This document shows, piece after piece, positions 44,609-63,474 of a stretch of DNA of 64,000 nucleotides; the first letter of the stretch is position 1, and each line of letters opens with the position of its first letter. Source of the DNA: Acidobacteriota bacterium (lineage in GTDB: Bacteria; Acidobacteriota; Terriglobia; Bryobacterales; UBA6623); NCBI GenBank assembly GCA_016125275.1, contig WGMB01000002.1:565231-629230 (forward strand). The letters are read 5' to 3'. Below the pieces are notes generated by a model, which was not told where the DNA came from, did no database searches, and worked only from the letters and a program-made list of their open reading frames with translations. A program made the translations under genes and the position numbers.

Positions 44609-46154
44609 GGCTCGGCTCTCGATCCGGAACGCCGGGCCGATGTGGCCGGCGCTGGCGGCGCAGGCGGCCCTGTGGTTGTGGGGCCTGGATCTGCTGCCGG
44701 TCTGGGGGGATGAACAGTTCACGCTGAACACCGTCGCCCTGAGCTGGGGCGAGATCGCCGCCACGCTCGCCCGCGACATCCATCCGCCGCTGTACTACTA
44801 CCTGCTCAAGGCCTGGCTGCTGGTGGCGCCGGGCGACCCTGTCGTGGCGGCTCGAGCCTTTTCGGTCGTCTGCGCCCTGGCCGCCACGGTCGTCTTGGAT
44901 CGCCTCTGGTTGCGCGCCAGGCCGCCGCGCGAGCGAGTCGTCTTTCTCGCACTGTGGACGCTGTCCCCCTGCCTGCTGCTGTACGTGCGCATGGCCCGCT
45001 CCTACAGCCTGCAACTGCTGTTGGCGGCGCTGGCGATCGAGGCTGCCGCGCGCTGGCTCCAGTCCCGCCGGACAGCCGCCGCCCTACGCTTCGCCTGCGC
45101 CGAGAGCGCCCTGCTCTACACGCATTACCTGCCGGGGTTGGCCGTGGGCGCGGCGGCCGGCCTGTTGGGACTCCGGCGCTCCTTCCGGCAGACGGCGCTC
45201 GTTTCCTTGGCCGTGATCCTGCTGTATCTGCCCTGGCTGGGGACGCTGTGGAGCAGCGTCAGCAAGGCAGCCGTTCATGAAGCCTACTCGCTGACCGGCC
45301 ACGGCCTCGCCGAGACGGCCGTACGCCTCGCCTTTGTCGGAACGTCATTCACCGTCGGGGAAGCCGTCGACGCTCCTTTGGTCGCGATCGCGGCCGTGGT
45401 CGCCCCTTTGGCGCTGGTGCTCACAGCATGGGCGGCCTGGGAGCAGGACGACGTTCGCTGGCGGCTGGCCGCACCGGCCGCCGCGGTCGCCTACCTGGGA
45501 GCGACGCAGTGGGTCTCCTACCCTTTCGTACCGGCTCGCCTGTTGTTCCTGCTGCCGTTCCTACTCGGCGGGGTGGCATGGGCCGCGGCGCGCCGTTGGC
45601 GCTCCGGCGTCGCGGCGGCAGCGCTACTGTTGGCGGGAGGGCTGGGCGGGCAGATTCTCTATCGTGAAACCGAGGGCTTCCTCAACAACGGCTATCTGAT
45701 CCCCTACCGGGAGATGGCTCACCGGATCGTGGCCGAGTCCCGGCCCGACGACGCGCTGGTCCTTGCCGACGCCTTCAACGCCGATCCCAAGCCGCTCGTC
45801 GCAGCCCTGCCGCCGGGCTACCGAGTGCTGCAAGCCCACGACGCCGGCTTCCCCGCCGCCCTCGACGAGGCCCTCGCCCAAACCCGAGCCTCCATCGTCT
45901 GGTACGCGCGATCGACTCGCGACGTCTCCCCCGGACGCCTGCAAACCCAGGCGGCCGAAGATCTCGCGCGCCGCTACTTACGCGCGGAGGCCTCCGCCTA
46001 CCTGCCCTATTCGCCGCTGCTGCGCGCGGCTCTGGGGGCCCTGCAGCACGACCAGCCGCCGAGCCACCACTTCGTCCTCGAAAAATGGGTGCGCCGCGAC
46101 CCTCCGCCCACAGGCGGAGGGTCCAACGACGCCGGACGGACGGGACGGCGCTAG
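44607..46154 (+). CDS. Polytopic GT39-type glycosyltransferase (515 aa)
   Basis: A membrane-embedded GT-C enzyme of the ArnT/PMT_2 group: the catalytic acidic pair is seen in VWGDEQF on the first periplasmic loop, and DIHPPLYYYLLKAWLL in the second, a signature of these dolichol/undecaprenyl-phosphate sugar transferases. About 10-11 helices, then a C-terminal soluble domain (from about residue 355; RPDDALVLADAFNAD). Start at ATG 44607, or at ATG 44640 if the shared CATG belongs only to the divergent gene. Inferred role: envelope glycan or protein glycosylation. Confidence 0.82.
   Translation: MARLSIRNAGPMWPALAAQAALWLWGLDLLPVWGDEQFTLNTVALSWGEIAATLARDIHPPLYYYLLKAWLLVAPGDPVVAARAFSVVCALAATVVLDRLWLRARPPRERVVFLALWTLSPCLLLYVRMARSYSLQLLLAALAIEAAARWLQSRRTAAALRFACAESALLYTHYLPGLAVGAAAGLLGLRRSFRQTALVSLAVILLYLPWLGTLWSSVSKAAVHEAYSLTGHGLAETAVRLAFVGTSFTVGEAVDAPLVAIAAVVAPLALVLTAWAAWEQDDVRWRLAAPAAAVAYLGATQWVSYPFVPARLLFLLPFLLGGVAWAAARRWRSGVAAAALLLAGGLGGQILYRETEGFLNNGYLIPYREMAHRIVAESRPDDALVLADAFNADPKPLVAALPPGYRVLQAHDAGFPAALDEALAQTRASIVWYARSTRDVSPGRLQTQAAEDLARRYLRAEASAYLPYSPLLRAALGALQHDQPPSHHFVLEKWVRRDPPPTGGGSNDAGRTGRR
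46098..46123 (+). terminator. Perfect 11-base hairpin in the end of the GT39 gene
   Basis: GACCCTCCGCC (46098-46108) pairs perfectly with 46113-46123 around a CACA loop, inside the last codons of the gene and just before the convergent roadblock gene. It has no T tract. It may be a transcript end or a Rho/processing barrier; the coding effect is the linker RDPPPTGGGS. Confidence 0.4.
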
Positions 46155-46513
46155 AACACGATCTGCTTTTCGATGTCCGCGGTTTTGTGCCGCGCCAGCG
46201 CCAAGTTCGACCGCTGCTTGTCAAGCACCAGATACACGAAGACGCCGTTCTTGCGCTCCATCGGGCGGATGATATGGTACTGCTTGCCCAGCGTGATCAG
46301 AATGTCTTCCAGCGAATCGTTCAAGCCGAGCGACTTCATCGTTTGGAGCTTCGCGCGTACGACCTCCGTGTTGCCGGCGGCGGCCAGATCCAGGTCGATG
46401 CCGTTGCCGATCTTGCCGAGAACCATGCCTGTGTTGCTGTCCACGACGGCCGCGGCCATCGCTCCTTGCAGGCTGGTCGTCAACTCCGAGAGGCTATCGT
46501 CGATGGTTGCCAT
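46151..46513 (-). CDS. Roadblock/LC7-domain protein, MglB-like (120 aa)
   Basis: ATG at 46513 follows AAGGAG. The whole protein is one roadblock domain: ALVDSNTGMVLGKIG written as AAVVDSNTGMVLGKIG, the long helix NTEVVRAKLQTMKSLG, and the strand GKQYHIIRPMERKNGVFVYLVLDKQ. In bacteria such proteins act as GTPase-activating partners of MglA-type small GTPases (cell polarity, gliding, type IV pili). The gene is 67 bases downstream of a second roadblock gene. Its stop overlaps the end of the GT39 gene on the other strand by four bases. Confidence 0.85.
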   Translation of the reverse strand: MATIDDSLSELTTSLQGAMAAAVVDSNTGMVLGKIGNGIDLDLAAAGNTEVVRAKLQTMKSLGLNDSLEDILITLGKQYHIIRPMERKNGVFVYLVLDKQRSNLALARHKTADIEKQIVF

Positions 46514-46580
46514 GGTGATATTCTCCTTGCTCTTCCGTTACTTCCAAAACTGGTCGTTCCGGCCTCGAGGCGGCCGGACG

Positions 46581-47015
46581 TCATTGATATCGCGCGATTT
46601 CCTCGGCGATCTCGTGCGCGCACTCCCTGCTGACGACCAGCAGCTTCCCCAGGACCGTGCGCTCATTGCTGATGACGATGAGCGAGTACCTCTGGGCTCC
46701 CACCGGCACGGCGCGAATCAGCGCGGCGCCCGCCGAGGTCTGCATCAAGAGGTCGTCGCACTCGGGCAAGCCTGTCTCCCGCGCCAAGGCGTCGCCCACG
46801 GCCGTCAGCGTGCTCGCCAGGGCCGCCAGCTTGGGGACGCTGAGGCCGCCTTCGACCAGCGCCGTCAGCTCAAAGCCGTCCGGCCCGGCCAACACCGCGG
46901 AAATCCTTCCGCTGACGCGCTCGCACAGCGCCTTGAGGCGAGCGTCGCAGGCCGCGGCGGCCTCCGGAGACAATGCCGGCGGGGAGTCGTCTTCAATGTC
47001 GAGCACAAAGCTCAC
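46581..47015 (-). CDS. Second roadblock/LC7-like protein (144 aa)
   Basis: GTG at 47015 overlaps the GTPase stop (GTGA). Roadblock pattern: a first helix (AAACDARLKALCERV), ISAVLAGPDGFELTALVEGG, a second helix (VPKLAALASTLTAVGDALARE), then LLMQTSAGAALIRAVPVGAQRYSLIVISNERTVLG. More diverged than the downstream paralogue. Overlap with the GTPase gene suggests direct interaction (an MglB-like partner of the encoded GTPase). Confidence 0.8.
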   Translation of the reverse strand: MSFVLDIEDDSPPALSPEAAAACDARLKALCERVSGRISAVLAGPDGFELTALVEGGLSVPKLAALASTLTAVGDALARETGLPECDDLLMQTSAGAALIRAVPVGAQRYSLIVISNERTVLGKLLVVSRECAHEIAEEIARYQ

Positions 47016-47578
47016 GAGTACATGCCCCCGGCGGCCGCCGCCTCTTTGTAGAGGCCGGACTCCGCCATCGCCAGCACCGCGTCGACCAGCGCCAGGACGT
47101 CTTCGCGCTCGCGAGCGTCCACTTGGAGCAGCGGAATGCTGAGCCCTCGACGCTGGATCACGTCTAGGTAGGCGTCGAACGGTCGCTCGGGCCGCAGGTC
47201 GGCGTGGGTGATGCCGACCACGCCGGGGGTGGAGCCGAGAATGTCGGCAAAAGCGTCGAGAAAGCCTTCGAGTTGCTGGGAAGAATCCGCCTCCGAGTGG
47301 TCGACGAGGATCAGCACCCCCAGGGCGCCCGTGGCGAGAATGTCCCACAAATAGCGATAGCGAGCCTGCCCCGGCGTGCCGAACAGGCGCACCTTGCAGT
47401 CGGGCGCGATCGTGATCTCGCCGTAGTCAAGCCCCACCGTGGTGGTCAGCTTGTCTGGACGATGACGGTCCGAACAGGGCGCCTCGGTTCGCAACGTCGG
47501 CGCCTCGCTTAACGCCGAGATGGCGGCCGTCTTGCCGGCGCCCATCGATCCCGTAAAGAGAATCTTGACCTCTTGCAT
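47012..47578 (-). CDS. Small Ras-like GTPase, MglA/CvnD type (188 aa)
   Basis: ATG at 47578. G1 is GSMGAGKT (residues 10-17), G3 is FGTPGQ (66-71), the form typical of the MglA/conservon-type bacterial small GTPases, and G4 is THAD (124-127) instead of NKxD, as often seen in this group. G2 region TTTVGLDYG. Cytoplasmic switch protein for cell polarity or signalling. Co-encoded with two roadblock proteins and, five bases upstream, a receiver-like protein. Confidence 0.9.
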   Translation of the reverse strand: MQEVKILFTGSMGAGKTAAISALSEAPTLRTEAPCSDRHRPDKLTTTVGLDYGEITIAPDCKVRLFGTPGQARYRYLWDILATGALGVLILVDHSEADSSQQLEGFLDAFADILGSTPGVVGITHADLRPERPFDAYLDVIQRRGLSIPLLQVDAREREDVLALVDAVLAMAESGLYKEAAAAGGMYS

Positions 47579-47583
47579 CGCGT

Positions 47584-48276
47584 TCAGCTCGCCAGACCCA
47601 GCCGCACCCGGATGCGCTGCAGAACCGACAGATGGGACAGTGCGCGCCGCCAGCTGGAGTCCGTCGCCGGACGCCTCGCCGACGGATCGGGCCGCTCGTG
47701 CAGGCGATCGAGAAAGGAGTCGAGCGGGCTCACCTGGAACGGAGCCCAGGGGACTCCGGCCTGCAGGGCCACCACGCGGATATCGAGGTTGAGTCGCTCC
47801 CGTAGCTCCTCGAGCCGCTCCGGCGACGATCGCCAGCGGCAGACGTCGCGTTTGGAGTCGAGCGCCGCCTCCACATCGTCGATCTGAATGAATAGTTCGT
47901 GAGGCGAGGCGGGATCGGACAGCAGGCGCCGTAGGCCCACGTCCAGTTCCCGGATCGAGCCGCTGCGCAGCAAAGGCGGCTCGGACTGGCGCCGCTTCTC
48001 GGCCACTTCGTTGAGAATCGACCGCAATTGCGAGATTCTGGCCGGTCGCACCAGAGCGGCCACCCCCGGGGGCGCGGCGCGTCCGCGGGAGACCAAAGCC
48101 ACCTTGTGGTCGCAATCGAACGCACGATATCCCGGCGCTTCCGGATCGAAAAACGCCAAGTCGAAGCGCTCGTCGTCAACGTCCCACTGATCGTCCAACA
48201 TCCCTTCGAGGACGCGCAGCATGGACCGAACGACGAGAGCTTCCCGCTGTTGCAGTCCGCTCAGGGTCAGCTTCAT
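47584..48276 (-). CDS. Receiver-like regulatory protein heading the GTPase/roadblock unit (230 aa)
   Basis: Residues about 10-95 read like a degenerate response-regulator receiver: FDLAFFDPEAPGY, KVALVSRGRAAPPG and LVRPARISQLRSILNEV, the last like the usual Lys-Pro region but with RP. The phospho-acceptor Asp is not clear, so phosphorylation is doubtful. The second half (about 105-230) is Arg-rich and helical. Five bases separate it from the GTPase gene. Inferred: input or scaffold subunit of the GTPase module. Strongly different from the LytTR protein. Confidence 0.6.
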   Translation of the reverse strand: MKLTLSGLQQREALVVRSMLRVLEGMLDDQWDVDDERFDLAFFDPEAPGYRAFDCDHKVALVSRGRAAPPGVAALVRPARISQLRSILNEVAEKRRQSEPPLLRSGSIRELDVGLRRLLSDPASPHELFIQIDDVEAALDSKRDVCRWRSSPERLEELRERLNLDIRVVALQAGVPWAPFQVSPLDSFLDRLHERPDPSARRPATDSSWRRALSHLSVLQRIRVRLGLAS

Positions 48277-49593: not shown

Positions 49594-50841
49594 ATGGTGG
49601 AGGAAGAGACTCTCGACTTTCGGGCCGACCGCGACGCTACGCTCAAGCTCATCGATTGGTTCGATATTGATCGCGCTCGAACCTCCAAAGTGCTCGTAGT
49701 GGGCGCCGGAGCAATCGGTAATGAGGCGCTCAAGAATCTTGCGCTCCTCGGCGTCGGCCATATCTATATCTTCGACAGGGACACCATCGAGATGTCCAAC
49801 CTGTCGAGGTCCGTCTTATACACCGGCGCGGACATGGGCCAGTCCAAAGCGCATACCGCGGCTCGGCGGCTGCGCGAAATCAACGCCTCGGTTCGGACCT
49901 ATTGGAATGACGGCGACATCTACTCGGACCTCGGAGAAGGTCTGATCCGCCGCATGGATGCCGTGATCGGTTGCCTCGACAACATGAACGCGCGTCTCTT
50001 GCTCAACCGGCTTTGCTGGCGGGTGGGAAAGCCCTGGATCGATGCGGGCATCGGGAGCTTGAACGGTCACGTCCGAGTCTTCCATCCCCCCAACGGCCCG
50101 TGCTACGAGTGCGCCCTCCCGGAGGACCACGACCGGCGTCAGGCCGTCGGCGAATCTTGCCGCGTGATCGCCCGCCGACAGGTCGACCAAGGCCGCATCC
50201 CCACGACGCCAACGATTGCATCAATCGTCGGCGCCGTCCAGGTTCAGGAGTGTCTGAAGCTTCTGGATGCGAAGCGCTGGGAAGGGCGCTCGCTCGCCGG
50301 GCGCCAGTTCGACTTCTACGGGGAGTTTGCAGCTGCAGACGTGACTGGGCTGCCCGCGCGGGAAGGCTGTTTAGTCCACGACGAGACGATTGACCCGCAC
50401 CTGATCGTAGAGATGCCCAAAGCGCACTCGCAGATGACCGCCGCCGCCCTGATGGTGGCGGCAAAGCGAGTCTTGCCCGACGCCTATCTCGTTTTGCCGG
50501 ACGAAGTCGCTGTGGAATGGCGGTGCCGCCTGTGCGGAGCTGCGTACCCTCTGCTTCGCCCGTTGCCCTCTCTATACCAGGGAGATCTGATCTGTGAGTC
50601 CTGCGGCCACGAGCCGACCTGGGAAAGCGAGATCAAACTTACCCACAAAGTCAGCGCCAACCACTCGCCTAGGGCCTTGCTCGAGGCCACCTTGCGCGCA
50701 TTGGGCGTGCCTCGTTTCGGACTGGTCGAAGCGCGAGGCTCCAATGGGGAAGTTCGCTTTCTCGAGTTGACCGGAGACGCCAACCAATCGGTTATCGCCG
50801 AACCGCCGCCTGTTTCACGGACCGGGGATTCAGTCTTGTAA
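49594..50841 (+). CDS. E1-like (ThiF/MoeB/UBA superfamily) ubiquitin-activating enzyme homologue (415 aa)
   Basis: ATG at 49594 lies directly behind a GGGGGGGAGG run; GTG at 49597 is possible. Seen: nucleotide loop VVGAGAIGNEALKNLALLG (residues 36-54), acidic Asp61 after strand 2 (IFDRD), the Arg-containing SNLSRS (68-73) and a CxxC zinc pair C170/C173 (GPCYEC). C189 (GESC) and C220 are candidates for the catalytic thioester Cys. The C-terminal 100 residues add a second zinc ribbon (C311/C314 and C334/C337: WRCRLCG and LICESCG), unlike MoeB or ThiF. Known family reaction: ATP-dependent adenylation of the C-terminal Gly of a ubiquitin-like protein. Its partners follow directly. Confidence 0.9.
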   Translation: MVEEETLDFRADRDATLKLIDWFDIDRARTSKVLVVGAGAIGNEALKNLALLGVGHIYIFDRDTIEMSNLSRSVLYTGADMGQSKAHTAARRLREINASVRTYWNDGDIYSDLGEGLIRRMDAVIGCLDNMNARLLLNRLCWRVGKPWIDAGIGSLNGHVRVFHPPNGPCYECALPEDHDRRQAVGESCRVIARRQVDQGRIPTTPTIASIVGAVQVQECLKLLDAKRWEGRSLAGRQFDFYGEFAAADVTGLPAREGCLVHDETIDPHLIVEMPKAHSQMTAAALMVAAKRVLPDAYLVLPDEVAVEWRCRLCGAAYPLLRPLPSLYQGDLICESCGHEPTWESEIKLTHKVSANHSPRALLEATLRALGVPRFGLVEARGSNGEVRFLELTGDANQSVIAEPPPVSRTGDSVL

Positions 50842-50880
50842 GTTTTGAGTCGACGCCGGCGACCTGGAGGAGGAACCATC

Positions 50881-51477
50881 TTGAGCACCATCAACATCAA
50901 TCTCGAGACGCCGAGCGGGATGCTTCTCGAAAATACCGAAATCCCTCTTGACTACACCGTCTCCCAAATCGTCAACGATATGGCGGACTACTTGGAGCTG
51001 CCACGGTTTGCCAACGGCAGAACGGTCGAGTATCGACTTTCCTGGGTCGAGCGCGGGGAGGACCTCTCCCCGGCCGCCACTTTGACCGATGCGGGGGTGC
51101 CCAACGGAGTCCGCCTCAAGCTCATCTCCTCCGCCCCGGCCGAGCCGCACCAGAACGGCAAGACCGCGCCGCCGTTGCCGCGCAAGAGCGAGGCGTCGGA
51201 GAAAGAGATCGAAGTGGTGATGTCAGTCCTCGATCTAAACAAGACCGAGCCGGTCACTCTGTCCCTGGATCAGAAGGTGGAGGATCTGATCCGCATGATC
51301 GCCAAGCAGCATCGGCTGCCCGATCGCGACGGTCTCGACGCTCCGATCCTCTACCGTCTCAAGAGCAAGGCGATCGGCCGGCAGCTCCGGCCGGGCGAGA
51401 CGCTGCGGGAGGCCGGAGTTCCACGCCATGACCGGCTCAGCCTCTTGCGCGAAGAGATCGCCGGAGGCAAGCCATGA
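50881..51477 (+). CDS. Tandem ubiquitin-like protein with C-terminal Gly-Gly-Lys-Pro (198 aa)
   Basis: Start is TTG at 50881, eight bases after GGAGGAGGA; an upstream frame adds only an Arg/Gly-rich lead. Two beta-grasp domains are visible. Ubl1 (about 4-82) has INLETPSGMLLENTEIPL, TVSQIVNDMADYLEL and VRLKLIS; Ubl2 (about 108-190) has IEVVMSVLDLNKTEPVTL, KVEDLIRMIAKQHRL and DRLSLLREE. The protein ends AGGKP: a Gly-Gly pair (195-196) followed by two residues. Known: ubiquitin-like proteins are activated at an exposed C-terminal Gly, so trimming of Lys-Pro, possibly by the JAMM protease, would be needed. Its stop overlaps the E2 start (ATGA). Confidence 0.85.
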   Translation: MSTININLETPSGMLLENTEIPLDYTVSQIVNDMADYLELPRFANGRTVEYRLSWVERGEDLSPAATLTDAGVPNGVRLKLISSAPAEPHQNGKTAPPLPRKSEASEKEIEVVMSVLDLNKTEPVTLSLDQKVEDLIRMIAKQHRLPDRDGLDAPILYRLKSKAIGRQLRPGETLREAGVPRHDRLSLLREEIAGGKP

Positions 51478-52139
51478 CGGAGCGACAGAAGCGCCGCTAC
51501 GCTTTGCTGCAGACCAACTATACGGACTTGATGAATGTGGCCGGTCGCAGCGACTTCATCCACATCGAGGCCATCGAGGTGGAGCCGCCCTGGCCGCCCG
51601 ACCGCTACATCGTGACCTACACCTGCGTCGGGATCAGCGGCGTCAATGCCGCCCGCGAGCCGGTCACCTCGAGCCTGCATCGCTGCGAGCTCTATCTCTC
51701 GCAGGACTATCCGAAGAAGGTGCCCTCTCTGTTGTGGCTGACCCCGATCTGGCACCCCAACATCATGCACCGGGAGCCTCGCCACGTTTGCACCAACGAG
51801 GTGCAGAACTACTATCCCGGCAAGTCGCTCGGGGAGTTGATCGAGTGGCTCGGCGAATTGGTGCAGTACAAGCGCTACCACGCTCGCCACGAGCCGCCCT
51901 TCCCGATCGACACCGAGGTCGCCCAATGGGTGCTCGACGTCGCCGAACCGAAGGGATGGATCAGCACGCAGAAGCCGGTAGACTCGCGCCCCTTGCTGCG
52001 TGGGCTCGGCATTGTTCAAGGTTCCCCTCCTCCTGCTCCGGCCCCCGTCGGCATCAAGTGGGGCAAGCCGGGAGGACCCAAGCCCGGGGGAATCAAGTGG
52101 GGTCGTGCGTCCGAACAGGGCGTGGGTCAAGGCAGCTAG
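51474..52139 (+). CDS. E2-like ubiquitin-conjugating enzyme homologue (221 aa)
   Basis: Residues about 60-135 carry the E2 signature: LHRCELYLSQDYPKKVPSLL, then the canonical HPN tripeptide H94-P95-N96 in IWHPNI, then catalytic Cys106 in HVCTNE, and a post-Cys helix (LGELIEWLGELVQYK). This matches the UBC fold closely. The tail (about 181-221) is Pro/Gly-rich and contains two copies of IKWG (194-197 and 207-210). Known role: accept the ubiquitin-like protein from E1 as a thioester and transfer it to lysine. Starts in the ATGA overlap with the Ubl gene, 40 bases before the JAMM gene. Confidence 0.92.
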   Translation: MTERQKRRYALLQTNYTDLMNVAGRSDFIHIEAIEVEPPWPPDRYIVTYTCVGISGVNAAREPVTSSLHRCELYLSQDYPKKVPSLLWLTPIWHPNIMHREPRHVCTNEVQNYYPGKSLGELIEWLGELVQYKRYHARHEPPFPIDTEVAQWVLDVAEPKGWISTQKPVDSRPLLRGLGIVQGSPPPAPAPVGIKWGKPGGPKPGGIKWGRASEQGVGQGS

Positions 52140-52179
52140 CTCGAGGCCGGCCCGGGGGCCGACGGATGAGGAGGGAAGG

Positions 52180-55100
52180 ATGCCCGAAGGACCTCAGCGA
52201 ATCAAGTTTGGCAAGGCCGTGCGGGCCGCCCCTTTCCCCCGGGCGCGTCTGTACCTGTGGGAGCCCGAGTCCGGGCGGACCGCGCCGCGACCCGACACCC
52301 CCCTCCTCGTCTCGCAGGAGGTGCTGCTCGGCGCTAGCCGCCACGTGTCCGAAGACGTTCGCCGGGAAATGGGCGGATTTCTGCTGGGCAACCGCTTTCG
52401 CGATCCCAACGAGGATTTCGAGTACCTGATCATTGATCAGTTCGCCCCCGCCCAGTGCACGCAAGCCACCGACGTCTCACTTTCGTTCACCACCGACGCC
52501 TGGGCCCGACTCGCGGATCAGCTCGACTACAAGTTCCTCGGCAAGGAGCTCGTCGGCTGGTACCACTCCCATCCGAGCATGGGCATCTTCCTGTCGGAGT
52601 ACGACGTACAAATCCACGACAACCGGTTCCGCGACTCCTACATGGTCGCGCTGGTCCTCGATCCGGTCGGCGGCAATGGCGGCTTCTTCTCTCGCGCCGA
52701 AGGCGTCCTACCCACCCGCAAAGTCTGTGAGTTCTACGAGCTTCTCGAAGAAGGGTCGGAGGAGGACCGCGAGACCGTCGTTTTCTGGAACGGCTATTCC
52801 TGCCGAGACGCGCTGAGCCGAGAGATTGTCCGGCCCGCGCTGGCGGCTGCAGCCCGCCCGAACGGCGCCTTGCCGGCTCCTGCTCCGCCCGCCCCCGCTC
52901 CGCCCGTTCCGGCCGCCTCACCCGCTCCAGCCAGCCCTCCAGCACCGTCAGCAAAGCCCGCGCCGTCAGCCCCTGCTGCCAAAAAAAGATCCGGCTCGGT
53001 CGCCGTCCACCCCGAGCCGTTTCCGGAAGCGCGCTCGTATCACTGGCTGCCGCGGGAGGATTCCGCTTTCGACGACGCCTCCGGCGCACGCCCGGGTTGG
53101 TCGATCGTAGTGACCCAGGAAGTATTGCGGGCGGTCAATCAGCATCTACTCGAGGACGTCAGCAGAGAGCTCGGCGGCCTTCTACTCGGCAACCTATACG
53201 AATGCCCAAACACCGGCGCCAAGTACGTCAAGGTCGATCAGTACTCCAAGGTCAAAGCGGGAAAGGGAACTGAGGTTTCCCTCGAGATCGCCGCCGAGGA
53301 TTGGGATTGCGCCGCGGAGGATTTGGCGGGCAAGTTTCGCGGCAAGACGCTGGTAGGTTGGTACCACTCTCACCCCGGCATGGGACCGTTCCTTTCCGGC
53401 CATGACGTCGCGATTCATGAGGAGCGTTTTCCGAGCGACTACGGGCTGGCTCTGGTGATCGACCCCAAGGCGGGGTTGGGCGGCTTCTTCTGCCGCTGGG
53501 ACGGCCGCCTCGACGCCCACCGGACCGCCGACTTCTTCGAGTACCGGCGTTCCACCGAGAAGGACGAATCCGTGGTCGAGTGGGGGAACTTCTATCGTGA
53601 GGATCTCGGCCCCAAGCTCGGAACCAAGCCGCCGGTCCATCTGACGGGCAGAGGGAGTCGAGGGAAGGCAGAGAACCTGCTCGCCAGCGTATTGGCGCTG
53701 TTGGGCGCGCAGCCGAGAAAGCCCCTGCGCTACTTGGCGGCCTTCGCCGCTCTGGCTGCTTTGGTGCTCGTCGGGTTTGTCGGCCTTTCTCAGTTCGGGT
53801 ATTGGCTGTGGCCTGCCAGCGCCAGCCTGTCGGGCCCCGAAGCTCCCGTCGATCCGGGCGAGCCGGTCGAGTTGCGCTGGACCACGGAAAACATCGAGAG
53901 CGCAACCCTGGATGGCAGGCCGGTGGCGCTGGAGGGAGCCCTCCAGGTCCGCCCCTTGGAGACGACCGTCTACACCCTGGCGTTCAACGGCAAATACGGC
54001 GGCGCCGGCGAAAAGCAGATCACCGTGAACGTGCGGGAACCGCAGAAGAACCCGCCGCAAGTGCAACTCAGCGCCGCTCGGGGCGAGATCCGCAAAGGAG
54101 AGGAGGCCAAGCTCCTCTGGTTGACCGTTAACGCCGTCTCGGTGCGCCTGATGCCCGAAGGCAAGCCGCTGCCCGTCAGCGGGGAGACAACCGTTCAGCC
54201 CAGCGAAACCAAAGAGTATTGGCTGATTGCGGAGTCGAAGGATGGCTCGCGGGCCGAATCGCCGAGGGTCTCGGTCACCGTCACGGATCCCAAGCGTAAC
54301 GAGAGCCCGCCGCCGCAAACCCCGAAGCCCATCATTGCGCTTCTCGCTGCGCCGCAGAGGCTGGAGAAGGGCTCTCGTGTTGAATTGAGTTGGCAGGTCT
54401 CCAATGCAGACACGGTCCTGCTCACCATGGATGGAGCCAAGGCCAAGAAGGTCACGCCAAGTGGCAAAGTGACCCACGACCCGAAGGCCGACGCCAAGTA
54501 CGTCATCGAAGCGAGCGGACCGGGCGGCAAGGCGTCGGAGAGCGTGACGGTATCGGTTGTCAACCCGCCGCCGCAAATAGTGACGCCGCCGCCCCCCGTG
54601 GTAAAGCGCGCGCCGGTCAAGCCCTCAGTCTCGCTCGTTGCCGATCCCCCTACGGTGGAGCGGGGCAAGCCGACCAAGCTGAGATGGAAATCCGAAGGCG
54701 CCCAGAAGCTCTACATCAACAGCGGGGTTGGAGAGGTCGCTCCGGAAGGAACCGTCGAAGTCCGACCGGCGAGCGACACCTCTTACACGATTACCGCAAC
54801 GTCCATCAGCAACATCGAGGCCTCCGCGTCCGTACGAGTCCAAGTAAAGGACCCCGCGCCCGTCTCGCCGCGAATCCTCTCCTTTCAGGCCAATCCAAAG
54901 ACCCTGCGGCCCGGCGAAACCTCCAAGCTGAGCTGGCGCACCGAACGGGCGGATAATGTCACCCTGGACGGCGCCAGAAAGAACCCGACGGACTCGGTGT
55001 CCGTTTCTCCCACGAAGACCACGACCTTCCAGCTCATCGCCCTGGGACCTGGCGGCCGAGACGAGAAGGACCTGGTGGTCGAAGTCGAACCGGCCCCTCC

Positions 55101-55521
55101 CACGGAGAAGCCTGCCACGCCGGCCCCCTCTCGAGCCGAGGCAGACGCCGGCGCCGAGCAGTTGTCGAAAAACCTCGGCCTGCTGCAGGGCTCTCAGGAG
55201 AAGAAGGCCGACTTCGACAAAGCCCTGGAGAAGCTGCGAGGGGCGCGTGGCGACCTCGCCAAATGCCTGCAGGAGAAGGGCGCGAAGAATCCCAAGAGTT
55301 GTCTCAAGAAAGGCGAGTTCGACGGTGTGGAGAAGCGCCTGAAGGAGCTGGCGGGCGGCGCCGACTTCCTCTCGGCCACGATCTCCAGCGCGAACCAGGA
55401 CAAAGACGACTCCGCCAGCGTCAAGGCGCATCTAGAGAAGCTGTCAGCACAGATGGAGGTCGTCGAAAAACATCTCACGGCCGAGATCGCCAAGATACCG
55501 ACGCCCACTACAACCCCCTAG
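52180..55521 (+). CDS. Membrane-spanning protein with two JAMM/MPN+ deubiquitinase-like domains and Ig-like repeats (1113 aa)
   Basis: ATG at 52180 follows GAGGGAAGG. Residues 1-20 contain RIKFGK. JAMM domain 1 (about 41-215): Glu63 in REMGGF and H129/H131/D142 in YHSHPSMGIFLSEYD. A Pro/Ala-rich linker (225-267) follows. JAMM domain 2 (about 305-460): Glu330 and H396/H398/D409 in YHSHPGMGPFLSGHD. All zinc and catalytic residues are intact in both. One membrane helix lies at about 517-541. Then come five Ig-like beta domains (starting near 548, each with a PxxVxxGExxxLxWxTxNAxxV pattern) and a C-terminal helical/coiled-coil region (about 1000-1105). Inferred: cytoplasmic deubiquitinase pair with an extracytoplasmic sensor. 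Confidence 0.9.
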   Translation: MPEGPQRIKFGKAVRAAPFPRARLYLWEPESGRTAPRPDTPLLVSQEVLLGASRHVSEDVRREMGGFLLGNRFRDPNEDFEYLIIDQFAPAQCTQATDVSLSFTTDAWARLADQLDYKFLGKELVGWYHSHPSMGIFLSEYDVQIHDNRFRDSYMVALVLDPVGGNGGFFSRAEGVLPTRKVCEFYELLEEGSEEDRETVVFWNGYSCRDALSREIVRPALAAAARPNGALPAPAPPAPAPPVPAASPAPASPPAPSAKPAPSAPAAKKRSGSVAVHPEPFPEARSYHWLPREDSAFDDASGARPGWSIVVTQEVLRAVNQHLLEDVSRELGGLLLGNLYECPNTGAKYVKVDQYSKVKAGKGTEVSLEIAAEDWDCAAEDLAGKFRGKTLVGWYHSHPGMGPFLSGHDVAIHEERFPSDYGLALVIDPKAGLGGFFCRWDGRLDAHRTADFFEYRRSTEKDESVVEWGNFYREDLGPKLGTKPPVHLTGRGSRGKAENLLASVLALLGAQPRKPLRYLAAFAALAALVLVGFVGLSQFGYWLWPASASLSGPEAPVDPGEPVELRWTTENIESATLDGRPVALEGALQVRPLETTVYTLAFNGKYGGAGEKQITVNVREPQKNPPQVQLSAARGEIRKGEEAKLLWLTVNAVSVRLMPEGKPLPVSGETTVQPSETKEYWLIAESKDGSRAESPRVSVTVTDPKRNESPPPQTPKPIIALLAAPQRLEKGSRVELSWQVSNADTVLLTMDGAKAKKVTPSGKVTHDPKADAKYVIEASGPGGKASESVTVSVVNPPPQIVTPPPPVVKRAPVKPSVSLVADPPTVERGKPTKLRWKSEGAQKLYINSGVGEVAPEGTVEVRPASDTSYTITATSISNIEASASVRVQVKDPAPVSPRILSFQANPKTLRPGETSKLSWRTERADNVTLDGARKNPTDSVSVSPTKTTTFQLIALGPGGRDEKDLVVEVEPAPPTEKPATPAPSRAEADAGAEQLSKNLGLLQGSQEKKADFDKALEKLRGARGDLAKCLQEKGAKNPKSCLKKGEFDGVEKRLKELAGGADFLSATISSANQDKDDSASVKAHLEKLSAQMEVVEKHLTAEIAKIPTPTTTP

Positions 55522-55530
55522 GGAGCCACG

Positions 55531-57081
55531 ATGACAAAAGCGCCCCCAGCCCGCCTGCAAACGCTTCTGACGCTGGCCCTCGCCTTCGCTCTGCCAACCG
55601 GGGCGCTCCGGCTCGCCGCTCAAGATCTGGGCGAGCCCGCGATCGCTCCCAGCGCCGAAGAGATCAACAGGGAAGGCTTCACGCTCCATCCAGCGGGCGC
55701 AGTGGAGGCCAACAACTGGGCCGCCGAGCCGCCCAAGATCCGTTTCAACTTTGCGATCACCCGAGCGGATGAGCAGCCTTTCGAGGGGCTGACCGAAAGC
55801 GCCATCGAGGCCAGGATCGGGACGCCGCCGGCCGAGCCGTTGGGCGCCAGGCTCGAGAGCTCCAGCAATGCCGAATCCGACGCGGTGATCCTGATCGACG
55901 TCAGCGGCAGCATGAAAGGTCCCAAGCTCGAAGCCGCCAAGAGCGCCGTCGCCGGCTTCCTCGGCAACCTGCGGGAGGAGGATTCGGTCGAGATCATCGT
56001 CTTCGACAACACTCCCAGGACGGTCTACGAGTTTGGCCGTGACAAATCCGCTGCCCAGGACGCTTTCGCCGGCTACGAGATCGTGGACTCACCGGGGACA
56101 GCCCTGTACGATTCCATCCTGGATGCCATGGAAAGGGCCCAGGCTCTCGAAGTGCGCAACGTCGTTGTCCTGACCGACGGGGTCGACATCGTCGCCTACG
56201 ACCGCGCTCGGTCCGAGGAGGAGAAAAATCAGTTCAAGCAGGAGAAGGAGGAGCGAATCCTGCAGACGTCGCGTGAAAGGGGCGACATCCGGGTCTTCAC
56301 CATCGCGGTCGGCGATCGAGAGGCGACAGACATCAACGAAGCCGGCTTCGTCGATGTCGCCTCGCTCGACCGCATCGCCAAGGGCACCAACACCTTGGAA
56401 TACCACTACGTCGACCTGCCGAAACTCGAAGCGATTCGCGACACGTTCGGACCGGCCGCCTACCAACAGGCCCTGGTCGAGAGCCTCACCGCCGTGCTGA
56501 ACACGATCAGCGAAGCTTTCCACTACGACTACGTGCTGGAGCTCGACCTGGACCCGGCGTCCATCGAGCAAGGCCGCCGCTCGAGCGGAGAGATCATCTT
56601 TTGGGTCGGCGCGGTCGGCCTGCCCGTCACCTTCGATTACATCTGGAGGAGAGGGGAAGAGTTCCCCCGGATCGATCCTCCTGTTGCGTCCCCGTATTTC
56701 ATCCGGCCGCCGGAGGGCCTCAACGGTTGGGATCTGACACAGATCTACCTCCAATTCGCAGGCGCACTGATGGCCTTGGCGCTGGTTCCTCCGGTCGGCG
56801 GTTGGCTCCGGTCCAGGCGCCTCGCCCGCGAAGCGCTCAAAGCCGTCACCGTCATTCAGCGCGGCTCTCCGCTGGCGGGCGCACAGTGCCCCAACGAGCG
56901 CGACAAGCTCGGGCAGAGCTTCCTGTTGCAGGTGGGCGAGGCCGCCATCGTCTGTCCGAAATGCGGCCGCGCCCATCACGTCGGTTGCTGGGAACAGTCC
57001 GGCGACAAATGCTGGGTTCGCGGCTGCGGAACCCATCTAGCCCTTCCGGAAGAGGTCAAGAAGACCTACTTGGCGTCCTGA
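55531..57081 (+). CDS. vWA-domain membrane protein with C-terminal RING-like zinc finger (516 aa)
   Basis: GGGAG precedes the ATG at 55531. Signal peptide or anchor at 9-29; a von Willebrand A domain at about 117-330 with intact MIDAS DVSGS (D123, S125, S127), Thr in GTALYDS and LTDGVD. A membrane segment at about 405-424 (QFAGALMALALVPPVGGWL), then a cytoplasmic C-terminal zinc finger: C453, C475-x2-C478, H482/H483, C486, C494, C499 (VCPKCGRAHHVGCWEQ). This is the prokaryotic RING-like/treble-clef pattern; the first knuckle has only C453, its second Cys being absent. Known: such fingers accompany bacterial E1/E2 genes. Inferred: candidate E3 or scaffold linking outside signals to the conjugation system. 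Confidence 0.83.
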   Translation: MTKAPPARLQTLLTLALAFALPTGALRLAAQDLGEPAIAPSAEEINREGFTLHPAGAVEANNWAAEPPKIRFNFAITRADEQPFEGLTESAIEARIGTPPAEPLGARLESSSNAESDAVILIDVSGSMKGPKLEAAKSAVAGFLGNLREEDSVEIIVFDNTPRTVYEFGRDKSAAQDAFAGYEIVDSPGTALYDSILDAMERAQALEVRNVVVLTDGVDIVAYDRARSEEEKNQFKQEKEERILQTSRERGDIRVFTIAVGDREATDINEAGFVDVASLDRIAKGTNTLEYHYVDLPKLEAIRDTFGPAAYQQALVESLTAVLNTISEAFHYDYVLELDLDPASIEQGRRSSGEIIFWVGAVGLPVTFDYIWRRGEEFPRIDPPVASPYFIRPPEGLNGWDLTQIYLQFAGALMALALVPPVGGWLRSRRLAREALKAVTVIQRGSPLAGAQCPNERDKLGQSFLLQVGEAAIVCPKCGRAHHVGCWEQSGDKCWVRGCGTHLALPEEVKKTYLAS

Positions 57082-57084
57082 GTC

Positions 57085-57987
57085 ATGTCGTTCGCACGCA
57101 TCTACTCACACTTCGTCTTCGGCGCGCTCGGCGGCCTGACCGGCTGGTACCTGGCGGCGCTGTGGCTGCACTCCGACGGCGTCGAGATCACGTCCGAAGA
57201 ACAGTTGCTGCGGGGCGCCATCCTCGGCTCCTGTATCGGCTTCGGAGTGGGAGCTTTCGACGGCGTCGACCTGCGGTCCGCGGCTCGCCTTCTGCGATAC
57301 GGCGGCGTCAGCCTCCTGCTGGGATTGCTCGCAGGAGCCGTGGCGCTGCCGGCCGCGCAGAACCTGTTCGACCGCTTTCAGACGGGCTCCGAACCCTTGG
57401 TCTGGCAAGGGACGCTTTGCTGGATCCTGTTCGGCGCGCTCATCGGCCTGGGCGAAGGCGTCACGAAGGGAACTCAAGCGTGGAAGGGCGTGGCGGGCGG
57501 GATGCTCGGAGGCATGGTCGGCGGCGGTTCCTATGAGCTGTTCGGGCGCACGGCCGACGGCGCCTCCTCCCAGGAACAGGCCACGCTGGCTCTCGCGCTA
57601 GCCGCCCTGGGAGGGGCCATCGGCGCCGCCGTGGCCTACGTCACCACGCTGCTCCGCGGCGCCTGGGTGGTCATCAACGACGGCAAACTGGCCAAGCGGG
57701 AGTTTGACGTCTCCAAGTACGTACATCCTCAGCTCGGCGCCCGCCGGCCGGGCGTCATCGGCAGCAACGGGGACATCTACCTGCCGGGTGACTCCGAAGT
57801 GCTTCCGGCGCACGCCACGATCAGCTACGTCGACGGAGCTCCCACCTTGACCGCCAGCGCCGAGGCCGTGAGCCAACGAAGGACGACCTCCGTCAACGGC
57901 CATCCCGTCCAGCGCTGGCCGCTCGCTCACGGCGACACGATCCAGATCGGCAATACGTCGATGACCTTCCGACACAAACGACGCTAG
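57085..57987 (+). CDS. Polytopic membrane protein with C-terminal FHA domain (300 aa)
   Basis: Three bases after the vWA gene. About five to six hydrophobic segments (5-28, 42-60, 72-92, 106-128, 165-190, with a Gly-rich stretch near 135-148). An FHA-like domain fills residues about 200-298: GVIGSNGDIYL (usual GR-like start), HATISYVDG, TSVNG and GDTIQIGN. The Ser/Arg that normally contact the phospho-threonine (SRxH) are replaced by PAH. Known: FHA domains bind pThr; without the Arg contact binding is uncertain. Inferred: membrane platform between the vWA/RING protein and the CpaF ATPase. Confidence 0.83.
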   Translation: MSFARIYSHFVFGALGGLTGWYLAALWLHSDGVEITSEEQLLRGAILGSCIGFGVGAFDGVDLRSAARLLRYGGVSLLLGLLAGAVALPAAQNLFDRFQTGSEPLVWQGTLCWILFGALIGLGEGVTKGTQAWKGVAGGMLGGMVGGGSYELFGRTADGASSQEQATLALALAALGGAIGAAVAYVTTLLRGAWVVINDGKLAKREFDVSKYVHPQLGARRPGVIGSNGDIYLPGDSEVLPAHATISYVDGAPTLTASAEAVSQRRTTSVNGHPVQRWPLAHGDTIQIGNTSMTFRHKRR

Positions 57988-58009
57988 CTTCGCGGCCGCG
58001 AGTTGACCC

Positions 58010-59116
58010 ATGCATTCCGACCAGATCTTCGCCATCACGATCGGACACTACCTGGCGCCGGTGGCCGGCTTGTTGGCCGACGACCACGTCAACGAGATCA
58101 TGATCAACGGCCCCGACGAGGTCTATCTCGAGCGGGACGGCCGGCTCGAGCTCACCGACATCCGTTTCCACGACCCCCTCACGCTCGAGGAGATGGCGCG
58201 CAACTTCGCTCAGTTCACCAACAAGCGCATCGACGCCCACACCGCCCGCTTCGATTCACGCCTGCCGGACGGCTCCCGCGTCCACGTCCTGATGCCTCGC
58301 TGCAGCCGCAAAGGTCTCTGCATTTCCATCCGAAAGTTCTCCCCACTAGGCTTCTCTCTCGAGGGCATGCTCGAAAGCGGTTCCTTGACCCCGGCCGCCA
58401 AGGAGTATCTGGAGACGATGGTCGCCATTGAAGCGAACATCATGGTCTCCGGCGGGACCGGCTCCGGCAAGACCTCCTTCCTCAACGCGCTCTCGCTCAA
58501 GATTCCACCCTCGGAACGGATCATCGTCATCGAGGACACCGCGGAGCTGAAGCTCGGACAGCCGCACGTGCTCTCGCTCGAAACCGCTGCGGCTGATCGG
58601 AAGGGCCGTGGCGCAGTGACGATTCGAGACCTCTTCCATTCCGCGCTGCGTATGCGGCCCGACCGCATCATCATCGGCGAGTGCCGCGGCGGCGAGGCCC
58701 TCGACCTGGTGCAGGCCCTCACCTCGGGCCACGGCGGCTCGATGTCCACGCTCCACGCCAACACCGGCCGGGACGCCTTGAGCCGTCTGGAGACAATGGC
58801 GCTGATGTCGGGCGTGAATGTACCGGTGGGCGCATTGCGCCCGCAGGTTGCCGCTGCGGTCGACGTTGTGGTTCAGCTCATTCGGCTCATCAACGGGCGG
58901 CGCGTCGTCTCGGAGATCGTGGAAGTCGACGATCTGCTGAACGGCGAGTACCAGACCATTCCGATCTTTGAGCGCTCCCGCTCCGCATCCGGCCGGGGAG
59001 AGTGGGAGCTGTGCGCCGCCGGCCGCAAGTCGATCTTCGGGGCGAAGGTGCAGGCTCAAGGCCGCCACAGAGAGCTTCGCCATACCGCCGCCATCTTCGG
59101 CCAACAAGGCAGCTGA
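58010..59116 (+). CDS. CpaF/TadA-family secretion ATPase (368 aa)
   Basis: ATG at 58010, 22 bases after the FHA gene. CpaF/TadA landmarks: an N-terminal domain (DDHVNEIMINGPDEVYLERDG), RIDAHTARFDSRLPDGSRVH, Walker A GGTGSGKT (148-155), the Walker-B-like Glu in VIEDTAEL, and [14 protein letters not shown]. Shorter than the second CpaF of this locus (611 aa) because it lacks the FHA and linker parts. Known: hexameric ATPase driving Tad/Flp pilus assembly or secretion. Its place within the ubiquitin-like operon is the link between the two systems. Confidence 0.93.
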   Translation: MHSDQIFAITIGHYLAPVAGLLADDHVNEIMINGPDEVYLERDGRLELTDIRFHDPLTLEEMARNFAQFTNKRIDAHTARFDSRLPDGSRVHVLMPRCSRKGLCISIRKFSPLGFSLEGMLESGSLTPAAKEYLETMVAIEANIMVSGGTGSGKTSFLNALSLKIPPSERIIVIEDTAELKLGQPHVLSLETAAADRKGRGAVTIRDLFHSALRMRPDRIIIGECRGGEALDLVQALTSGHGGSMSTLHANTGRDALSRLETMALMSGVNVPVGALRPQVAAAVDVVVQLIRLINGRRVVSEIVEVDDLLNGEYQTIPIFERSRSASGRGEWELCAAGRKSIFGAKVQAQGRHRELRHTAAIFGQQGS

Positions 59117-59141
59117 CGCTTCCTGAACAAGGTCCTCGCCC

Positions 59142-59639
59142 ATGAGTGACATGAACCCGCCCAGAATCAAGTACGGAACGATCCGAGAGCCCAGCCGACA
59201 AGCGCCTCCCGGCGAGGCGGTGACGTCCGAGGAAGCCGCTCGCGGTTTCCGCTTGGGGTCCGAGGCCGCCCTCCGTGAGCCGGCCGGCGCGGTCGCGCCC
59301 AACGATACCGCCGTAAACCCGGTGATCCTCGGAGCCACGATCGTGGCGGCGGCGGCTCTGGTGGTCACTCTGGCCTTTGGCGGAGCCGGCAAGGCCTCCA
59401 AGCTCCAGTTCGACGATCGGCGCGCGCTGGAAGACTACTCCGCCTACGTAGCCTCCCACCCGGGCGAGGACCTGCCGGGCATCGAGGAAGTGCGCATCGA
59501 GCTCAACGAGATCGTCCGCTTGGGCAACAGTGGCCGTCAGGATCTGGTGCGGCGTCATTGGCAGTCGCTGCTGCTGCGGAGCAACGGTCCTGACAATCCC
59601 CTGCTGCGCCTGGCTCAGGAGCGCCTCGAGCATGACTAG
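59142..59639 (+). CDS. Small single-pass membrane protein of the operon (165 aa)
   Basis: ATG at 59142. The N-terminus is MSDMNPPRIKYGTIRE: the RIKYG echoes RIKFG of the JAMM protein and IKWG of the E2. A polar, cytoplasmic-looking stretch follows, one membrane helix at about 62-84 (VILGATIVAAAALVVTLAFG), and a helical soluble domain of about 80 residues. No family recognised. Its stop overlaps the next gene's start region by eight bases. Inferred: adaptor recruiting the conjugation machinery to the Tad-like ATPase at the membrane. Confidence 0.7.
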   Translation: MSDMNPPRIKYGTIREPSRQAPPGEAVTSEEAARGFRLGSEAALREPAGAVAPNDTAVNPVILGATIVAAAALVVTLAFGGAGKASKLQFDDRRALEDYSAYVASHPGEDLPGIEEVRIELNEIVRLGNSGRQDLVRRHWQSLLLRSNGPDNPLLRLAQERLEHD

Positions 59640-59814
59640 CTGCCCCTCCGCGAGCCGCCGGCGGCTGCGAGCGCAGCAGGGGCAGGCCACTGTCGAGTGG
59701 CTGCTCCTCATCGCCGTCGTGGCGCCGATGGCCGTTTTGATGTTCGAGGTTCTGCGCTACTTGGCGCGGTTCTACGCCTTCACCAGTTGGGCAATCTCGT
59801 TGCCGTTTCCGTGA
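59632..59814 (+). CDS. Prepilin-like peptide, Flp/TadE type (60 aa)
   Basis: ATG at 59632 overlaps the previous stop by eight bases. After an Arg-rich lead (ASRRRLRAQQ), the sequence GQATVEWLLLIAVVA carries a type IV prepilin site: Gly at -1 and Glu at +5 before a hydrophobic helix (about 20-44). This fits Flp or TadE-type pilins of Tad systems; the short tail (FTSWAISLPFP) lacks a folded domain. Inferred: structural subunit or pseudopilin of the Tad machine. Last gene of the plus-strand operon, 12 bases before the convergent TadC gene. Confidence 0.75.
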   Translation: MTSCPSASRRRLRAQQGQATVEWLLLIAVVAPMAVLMFEVLRYLARFYAFTSWAISLPFP

Positions 59815-59826
59815 GCGCTGGCGGGA

Positions 59827-60771
59827 TCAGAACGGACTCTGCTGCGCCATTCGCATCAACAGCGGCCCCACCAGCAAGATCATCGCGGCGACGGCGACGA
59901 CCATGAGCGGAAACGTCGCCCTGGCGCTCGCCTCCTTCGCGATGACTTCGGCCGACTGGTAGCGGCGTTGTCGGGCCACATCGGACTGCGTCCGCAAGAT
60001 CTGCCGAATCGGCTGGCCGTTCTCCAGGCCCGTTCTCACAGCGAGCGCAAACGCCGACACGCCGGGCGAATCGATGCGCTCGGCCAGGCCGCCGAACGCT
60101 TCGGCGGGCTCCCGGCGCCGCTCCATGTCGTGGAGCACGCTGGCGAGTTCCTCCGCCATGGGGTCGGCCTGCACGTGTTCGATGTAGACCTGCACGGCGG
60201 CCTCGAGCGACGAGCGGGCCTCCATAGCCAGCACGATGAACTCCAGGGCGAACGGGAGCCGCTTTTCGATCAGCGAGACTCGGTTGGCTGCGGCCGAATC
60301 CAGCGCCGCCCGCGGGGCTAGCGAGCCTACGGCCCCCGCCGCCGCGCTCAGCAGCAATGCCACCGGCCAAGCCAGCCCGCTCAGCAGGGTCATTGCGAGC
60401 ATCAGGACCGCGCCCGCGACGGCGGCCAGGACCGAGTAGGCCGCGATCTCGAGCGGCGCGAGATCCCGCCGCAGGCCCGCGCGGACCAAGGCCCGGTCGC
60501 TGTCGGCGAGAAACCGCCGGAACCCAGCCGCCGAAGTTCCCTGCCCCTGCAACCGGATTCCCTCCAGCGCTGGGGTCACGACCGAGACCGGCCCGTTGAG
60601 CCAGCTCCAATCCGAGCCGCCCCAAAGGGTCTTGCCCGAGACGCGAGATTCGCTCCGGATCCGATTCCCTCTGGCGTAAGCCTCGGCCAGGGCTCCGGCC
60701 GCCCAACTCGCCCCCAGCCCCACGCTCGAGGCCGTCAGAGCCACGCACAACGCTTGCAGAATCAGCTCCAT
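59827..60771 (-). CDS. TadC-like type II/F secretion system protein (314 aa)
   Basis: A T2SS-F-type membrane protein: an N-terminal helix, helices around residues 108-155, the cytoplasmic helical core with EKRLPFALEFIVLAMEARSSLEAAV-like start (residues about 188-212) and a C-terminal helix (MVVAVAAMILLVGPLLMRM). Ten bases behind TadB. Known: TadB and TadC form the inner membrane platform with the CpaF ATPase. Convergent with the prepilin gene. Confidence 0.88.
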   Translation of the reverse strand: MELILQALCVALTASSVGLGASWAAGALAEAYARGNRIRSESRVSGKTLWGGSDWSWLNGPVSVVTPALEGIRLQGQGTSAAGFRRFLADSDRALVRAGLRRDLAPLEIAAYSVLAAVAGAVLMLAMTLLSGLAWPVALLLSAAAGAVGSLAPRAALDSAAANRVSLIEKRLPFALEFIVLAMEARSSLEAAVQVYIEHVQADPMAEELASVLHDMERRREPAEAFGGLAERIDSPGVSAFALAVRTGLENGQPIRQILRTQSDVARQRRYQSAEVIAKEASARATFPLMVVAVAAMILLVGPLLMRMAQQSPF

Positions 60772-60781
60772 GATTGCGCCC

Positions 60782-63465: not shown

Positions 63466-63474
63466 GGCGGATCC

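Follow-up and report, generated by a model that had tools for sequence, protein, structure and literature searches.

Operon organisation and recurrence

Whether a bacterium may encode a complete ubiquitin-type cycle within a single operon, and what such a cycle would serve, are questions raised by a 64,000 nucleotide stretch of an Acidobacteriota genome (contig WGMB01000002.1, positions 565,231 to 629,230; hereafter the window, in whose own numbering its features are given). On the plus strand, positions 49594-57081 hold five uninterrupted full-length reading frames, for an activating enzyme (E1), a ubiquitin-like modifier (Ubl), a conjugating enzyme (E2), a JAMM peptidase and a vWA protein with a RING-like finger. 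An earlier reading of the letters alone (the sequence-only reading) had described five consecutive genes, overlapping or separated by 40 bases or less, and had inferred that all steps of the cycle are encoded together. All frames are intact and on the same strand, with spacings from the E1 through the vWA/RING gene of +3, -4 (an overlap), +40 and +9 bases, and a part is present for every step, the candidate ligase (E3) being a probable assignment only. We consider it fairly likely that the operon serves to attach the Ubl to proteins, and to take it off again, on the cytoplasmic side of the inner membrane, in an envelope-sensing and ATPase-linked system.

A gene-neighbourhood survey using E1 as bait yielded 80 named loci (designated here by L numbers), with a relative encoded in at least 493 of the 589 candidate stretches. 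The sequence-only reading had proposed a neighbourhood survey of E2 homologues; in the present one the core set recurs in most of the 80 loci and in several phyla (Acidobacteriota, Chloroflexota (Anaerolineae), Planctomycetota, Bacillota and a few others), and the gene set is therefore far beyond chance. E1 is present in all 80 loci, E2 in 73, JAMM in 71, Ubl in 64, FHA in 31 (a count that takes in fusions and genes combining FHA with transmembrane (TM) segments) and vWA in 27; RING was recognised by direct similarity in 21, and a membrane-anchored RING gene follows E1 in 30 of 31 Anaerolineae-type loci. The parts are further linked by fusions, i.e. vWA-RING in the clade of the window, Ubl-E2 in Anaerolineae and E2-TM-FHA in Clostridia.

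The distribution is patchy, with relatives in 11 of 257 genomes within the order and, for an Anaerolineae member (L057), in 17 of 61 genomes of its family and 22 of 199 of its class. G500, the only further close orthologue met within the order, was taken to be the same genome as L033 and not a new one. No E2 relatives were found among 72,556 plasmid or 50,697 phage records, on which ground carriage by mobile elements was rejected. In L051, L055, L056, L057, L063, L078 and L084 a conserved gene block lies directly upstream of the Ubl operon, and its members L051_3617 and L078_3142 look like ribosomal L7/L12 and L10; this fixed chromosomal site argues for vertical inheritance in those loci.

The conjugation enzymes and the modifier

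The E1 (49594-50841, +; 415 residues, ThiF/UBA fold) matches Pfam ThiF with 190 bits. Across seven aligned E1s the GAGA.GNE loop, R13, D61, N69-L-S-R72, K85 and D129-N130 are invariant, so the nucleotide loop, loss of which in orthologues had been named as grounds for rejecting the pathway, is retained. Also invariant are C170, C173, C259 and H262, which may form a zinc site, and C189, which lies outside these presumed zinc cysteines and is a candidate for the catalytic residue. In profile comparison with the PDB, the eukaryotic enzymes UBA7, UBA1, SAE2 and UBA3 rank above MoeB/ThiF and Cap2. Elsewhere in the family, an E1 in Anaerolineae (L057:4599-6338) bears an N-terminal GntR DNA-binding domain (Pfam GntR 1e-20, residues 43-105; ThiF at 164-401), and this fusion of a transcription factor with an E1 suggests auto-regulation by Ubl flux; other Anaerolineae-type E1 frames are similarly long, the GntR scan having covered L057 alone.

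The E2 (51474-52139, +) carries an HPN motif at residues 94-96 and Cys106. None of H94, P95, N96 and C106 varies among 63 homologues, which come from several phyla, and the conservation of Cys106 on which the sequence-only reading had staked its case is thereby upheld. Although the Pfam UQ_con score of 23.3 bits is under the 27-bit cut-off, which the relatives in L032 and L060 exceed, the AlphaFold2 model built from these 63 homologues (pLDDT 87) adopts the UBC fold, with a tail that is unstructured from about residue 180. Foldseek places the model with UBE2D, UBE2A and Rad6 (prob 1.00, E 1.7e-6), and the E2 profile matches yeast Ubc13 (E 3e-14). Two departures from this plan occur among the relatives: the E2 of L032 (L032:9371-10471) bears a C-terminal double zinc ribbon, and L060:5799-7478 encodes an E2 fused to multiple TM segments and a C-terminal FHA domain (about 560-650 residues), i.e. 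a membrane-bound E2, similar loci from Lachnospiraceae/Ruminococcaceae being L073, L098 and L104-L106.

The modifier gene (50845-51477, +; TTG is its likely start, the exact start being uncertain) encodes a tandem YukD-type Ubl precursor that ends in REEIAG followed by GKP. A Pfam YukD match in two stretches (45 bits) agrees with a beta-grasp, YukD-type assignment. Burroughs and colleagues are said to have proposed, in 2011, that YukD-like Ubls act as conjugated modifiers. Of 52 standalone homologues, 51 stop at the conserved -AG or within a few residues beyond it, 37 of them exactly there, whilst the residues after IAG vary between the acidobacterial orthologues (GKP, CRFASRSGGRP or GREDH). 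The GG of AGGKP was accordingly ruled out as a conserved mature end, since relatives end in -AG and GKP is unconserved. Because the acidobacterial copies extend past -AG, trimming is to be expected, presumably by the JAMM protein, and in the window removal of GKP would expose the glycine end. Trypsin is predicted to leave EEIAG (+499.23 Da), or EEIAGG, on a modified lysine, so that the Gly-Gly remnant search envisaged in the sequence-only reading, or standard K-GG reagents, would miss this modifier.

The JAMM and vWA/RING-like membrane proteins

The JAMM gene (52180-55521, +) encodes a tandem peptidase in which Pfam JAB is matched in two stretches (72 bits) and the metal site (Glu plus HxHx7SxxD) is intact in both copies (HSHPSMGIFLSEYD and HSHPGMGPFLSGHD), confirming the two motifs originally noticed. 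The tandem arrangement is unique to the window protein, each of 92 homologues having a single HxHx7SxxD. From the N-terminus, the protein comprises an IKFG motif, the two JAMM domains, one TM segment (about 520-538) and a bulky Ig-like ectodomain with a weak Pfam Ig-like match; hydropathy predicts that the JAMM domains are cytoplasmic and membrane-anchored, in line with the membrane-anchored deubiquitinase-type protein anticipated from the sequence. Clostridial homologues (L060:7469-8575 and L080:11777-12868) have the order JAMM-TM-LysM, in which a deubiquitinase-like domain is tied to a module that binds peptidoglycan.

The fifth gene (55531-57081, +) encodes a vWA domain (Pfam VWA_2, 51 bits; MIDAS DVSGSM) and a RING-like finger. 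Its hydropathy profile shows two hydrophobic segments, giving the order signal/TM-vWA-TM-RING, with TM2 at 405-423 followed by a charge of +4, and the vWA domain is predicted to be extracytoplasmic and the finger cytoplasmic. In Anaerolineae, RING and vWA are separate TM proteins, whereas in the acidobacterial clade they are fused, and across clades the predicted layouts suggest a recurring plan of catalysis inside and binding modules outside.

The AlphaFold2 model of the finger (26 homologues, pLDDT 89.7) has the cross-brace fold of RING E3s, and RING E3 structures fill all nine top places among its PDB matches, including RNF13, RNF38, Ark2C, RNF12 and a UBE2K-bound RING E3 (best Foldseek prob 0.93, E 0.058). 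The central Cys/His ligands and a CW pair are conserved. Most relatives have the eight-ligand C4HC3 set, of which the window finger keeps seven, the second Cys being Glu here and in the close relatives L032 and L033. Given this substitution and a Prok-RING_1 score of 21.8 bits, under the 29.1-bit cut-off, we call the finger RING-like and not Prok-RING_1. The vWA protein with a RING-like finger of the sequence-only reading thus stands as regards the vWA domain and the modelled RING fold, and is qualified as regards one zinc ligand; because this ligand is missing, the modelled finger is assigned an E3 role as probable only.

Downstream genes and a dedicated ATPase

The operon extends past 57081, which corrects the earlier description, and comprises nine co-directional genes (49594-59814); beyond the vWA/RING gene the spacings are 3, 22 and 25 bases, and the last two genes overlap. 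The sixth gene (57085-57987, +) encodes a multi-TM protein with a C-terminal FHA domain (Pfam FHA 29 bits; YscD-like similarity weak). In this domain, in the window and in relatives throughout, IGS replaces IGR, with Arg and Ser both substituted; phosphothreonine reading is therefore unlikely and was set aside, the key, phospho-binding Arg being absent.

The seventh gene (58010-59116, +) encodes a TadA/CpaF/VirB11-type secretion ATPase (T2SSE 185 bits; TIGR03819 282 bits). It is 60% identical to a copy in L032 (Blastocatellia), which sits directly upstream of the E1 in that locus, and 70% identical to a truncated copy in L033 (Bryobacterales; L033:13626-14105) that follows the FHA gene and is apparently a decaying component in that genome. 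No such ATPase among 60 relatives exceeds 47% identity to it, and the Tad ATPase encoded 2.5 kb away reaches 40%. From this pattern it follows that the ATPase travels with the Ubl operon, each of the three close orthologous operons having a member of its dedicated subfamily, in one case a truncated one.

The remaining two genes encode a small protein of 165 residues (59142-59639, +) with a single TM segment at 61-79 by hydropathy and IKYG near its N-terminus, which gave no family match in family-model scans, and a 60-residue hydrophobic peptide (59632-59814, +; GQATVEW...), an open frame that we infer to be pilin-like or TadE-like and that matches DUF4244 weakly (E 0.037). Directly downstream and converging on the operon lies a Tad gene set on the minus strand (59827-63984) with RcpC, a second CpaF and two T2SSF proteins; the second CpaF (61630-63465, -) is extended at its N-terminus by a long segment that includes an FHA-like stretch missed by Pfam. 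Upstream, the minus strand at 46151-48276 holds a small Ras-like GTPase (Pfam ATP_bind_1/Ras), beside which short proteins resemble roadblock by eye.

Short motifs shared between operon proteins

The pattern IK[FWY]G occurs four times in all six-frame open reading frames of the window, always inside three genes of the operon: IKWG twice in the E2 tail, IKFG in the N-terminal part of the JAMM protein and IKYG near the N-terminus of the small TM protein. Five occurrences are found in the 1.28 million residues of the 80 loci. When the operon proteins were shuffled, three carriers of the broader pattern [IV]K[FWYLMI]G arose with P = 0.0014, a value that, like others for these motifs, is descriptive because the patterns were chosen after the sequences had been seen. 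That otherwise unrelated operon members carry the same short motif suggests, on the analogy of SUMO-interaction motifs, that they dock on a partner in common, and IK[WFY]G is probably a docking tag shared by the E2, the JAMM protein and the small membrane protein. Alternatively, its lysine could be an acceptor site, by analogy with an archaeal E2 that is auto-modified on a C-terminal lysine (PMC5654768). Matches of the form IRMG in the FHA protein belong to the FHA domain and were rejected as tags.

Short motifs occur in other loci too. In L032, RIKLG is found in the E2 and the JAMM protein and nowhere else. Anaerolineae proteins have tails of the form [RKHQ][IV][KRHT][hydrophobic][KRG], typically RIKLK, in 22 of 31 E1s, 25 of 30 E2s, 17 of 25 vWA proteins and 4 of 30 JAMM proteins, where about 1 or fewer would be expected per protein group. 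In planctomycete E2s the terminal motif is of another, acidic-hydrophobic kind (27 in 25 E2s; 0.08 per 1000 residues elsewhere). Across L032-L111 the E2 C-termini bear motifs of alternating hydrophobic residues that differ by clade: RIKLK in Anaerolineae, GINIL in other Chloroflexota, D-D-I-x-F-I/L in Planctomycetota and DIKLW/F in Clostridia. One locus, L074 (Syntrophomonas sp.), holds E2 and JAMM genes in two copies each along with several for RING proteins, and its FHA protein starts with acidic-hydrophobic repeats (DNLIVLD, EKIIIELDD) that resemble E2 tails. Charge complementarity between E2 tail and Ubl was discarded as a clue to the receptor, the raw Spearman coefficient of -0.62 falling to r = -0.08 (p = 0.59) in phylogenetic contrasts.

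A proposed mechanism and its alternatives

In the mechanism we favour, the JAMM protein would trim the Ubl precursor after IAG (or IAGG), and the E1 would adenylate the Ubl and charge the E2 with it at Cys106. The vWA protein is taken to cross the membrane once, the vWA domain lying outside; its RING-like finger would recruit the charged E2 and direct transfer to lysines of substrates near the membrane, from which the membrane-tethered JAMM domains would take the Ubl off. First candidates for such substrates are the ATPase, the IKYG protein and the E2 tail. Through the vWA and Ig-like domains on the outer side (LysM in clostridial relatives), contacts at the envelope or surface could shift the balance between conjugation and removal, and in the acidobacterial clade the TadA/VirB11-type ATPase would be a client or a controlled machine. 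Gene content, conservation, predicted folds, co-inheritance of the ATPase and the shared motif are observed; the reaction steps, the topology in vivo, the E3 role, the substrate and the signal are as we would expect them from these. A more specific scheme can be offered tentatively, as less likely than not to hold in full: the vWA domain would gate a RING E3 in the same polypeptide, a wall-facing tandem deubiquitinase would oppose it, the ATPase would be the output, and lineage-specific tags (IKxG here, RIKLK in Anaerolineae) would join the parts.

Several observations weigh against reversible, envelope-linked conjugation as set out above. The finger is short of one canonical ligand and its Foldseek E-values are modest (0.06); hydropathy is the sole basis of the topology assigned to the vWA/RING and JAMM proteins; the shared motif is missing from L033; and the ATPase is found solely in the acidobacterial clade, where the L033 copy is truncated. 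In addition, the genome holds a single proteasome-family gene, HslV-sized, and no Pup ligase, so that a degradative or proteasomal end-point is unlikely and unsupported.

The alternative that survives best accepts conjugation as real but regards the finger as a structural zinc module, with the E2 itself picking targets (E3-independent, perhaps mostly by auto-modification of tail lysines). The Glu at the second ligand position is common to the whole acidobacterial clade, the IKWG motifs place lysines in the E2 tail, and the E2 of Caldiarchaeum subterraneum auto-modifies a C-terminal lysine (PMC5654768). We nevertheless find this account rather doubtful, as the finger is tied to E1/E2 operons across phyla, stands as a separate membrane gene in nearly all Anaerolineae loci, conserves its central ligands and CW, and finds RING E3s in each of its nine best PDB matches.

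Anti-phage defence of the Bil or CBASS type, in which the same chemistry would tag phage proteins or an effector during infection, appears unlikely. The function-tested bacterial Ubl conjugation systems are antiphage (PMC10097602), related sets sit in predicted conflict systems (PMC7159879), and occurrence in the order and in the class of L057 is sparse; PADLOC, however, gives generic E1/JAB similarity only, with nothing for the Ubl, E2, vWA/RING or FHA proteins, and the operon has no recognisable effector (nuclease, caspase or nucleotidyltransferase). Nor do the plasmid and phage records contain E2 relatives, and the position of several Anaerolineae copies at one site by the ribosomal L10/L7-L12 genes is unlike that of a mobile island.

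A non-covalent role, in which the YukD-like Ubl would be an assembly factor of a secretion machine and the E1 and E2 vestigial, we hold to be very improbable. YukD of type VII secretion is the nearest Pfam family of the Ubl, the operon holds a secretion ATPase and a pilin-like peptide, and Bacillus subtilis YukD was reported to be unconjugated (PMC1779556); vestigial enzymes, by contrast, would not keep E1 and E2 active sites and the -AG end of the Ubl across phyla. Type VII genes (WXG100, FtsK-type EccC) were recognised neither among the scanned operon proteins nor among recurrent neighbours in the 80-locus survey, which included no dedicated EccC search. Finally, a sulfur-carrier or cofactor module of the MoeB/ThiF-MoaD/ThiS type is scarcely credible, for whilst ThiF/MoeB models also match the E1 adenylation domain, all score far under their cut-offs, the E2, RING-like finger and JAMM are present, cofactor genes are absent nearby, and for such a task two further ThiF-family genes are available elsewhere in the genome.

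Relation to known systems

Bacterial E1/E2/Ubl/JAB sets were, as the sequence-only reading held, already known: prokaryotic operons of this kind were described by comparative genomics (Iyer et al. 2006, PMC1779556), and complete E1/E2/RING/JAB/Ubl sets are reported in PMC7159879, which cites Burroughs et al. 2011. Those operons share with the window the E1, E2, Ubl, JAB peptidase and prokaryotic RING, to which the window adds the vWA-RING TM fusion, the tandem Ubl and JAMM, the Ig-like JAMM ectodomain, the ATPase and the IK[WFY]G tag, features for which no published account was found. The vWA-MoxR/FtsH ternary conflict systems (Kaur et al. 2020, PMC7159879) likewise combine JAB, E1, RING-type E3, Ubl-E2 and vWA in one operon, but their MoxR, FtsH, EAD1-tagged Ubl and caspase-like effectors were not recognised in that of the window.

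The pathway of C. subterraneum (PMC5654768) is similar in its operon of Ub, E1, E2 and small RING protein, with Rpn11/JAMM adjoining, in its JAMM-dependent maturation of the Ub precursor and in its canonical E2 site. It differs in having a single Ub with a GG end, a small RING protein and no membrane parts in the operon, and in its reconstitution in vitro.

With the Bil (BilABCD) and type II CBASS Cap2/Cap3 systems the operon has E1/E2/JAB logic in common; unlike them, it encodes a separate canonical HPN E2, a YukD-type Ubl, a RING-like finger and FHA/vWA membrane proteins, and is without a nucleotidyltransferase. The likeness to Bil-type operons drawn in the sequence-only reading does not extend to the family level, PADLOC giving weak BilD and BilC similarity only and no BilA/BilB-type match, and membership of Bil or CBASS is thus unsupported by PADLOC. 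As regards type II CBASS, no operon protein matches a nucleotidyltransferase family, and E1 and E2 are separate genes. With the Tad/Flp pilus (CpaF, TadB/C, RcpC) the operon shares an ATPase of the TadA/CpaF family, but the operon ATPase forms a separate subfamily co-inherited with Ubl genes, and its L032 counterpart has no further recognised Tad gene next to it. To judge by the accessible literature, the vWA-RING fusion, the tandem JAMM, the dedicated ATPase and the shared tag are undescribed, whilst the general kind of system is known.

The reading favoured here predicts an EEIAG remnant on modified lysines and a common partner bound by the shared peptide tag. Since the E1 and E2 profiles are nearer to eukaryotic UBA and UBC proteins than to MoeB or Cap2, the system also bears on the origin of eukaryotic ubiquitin chemistry. 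If the reading is correct, bacterial ubiquitin-type signalling, with a RING E3, an HPN E2 and a membrane-bound deubiquitinase, would extend beyond phage defence and cofactor chemistry to envelope-linked regulation.

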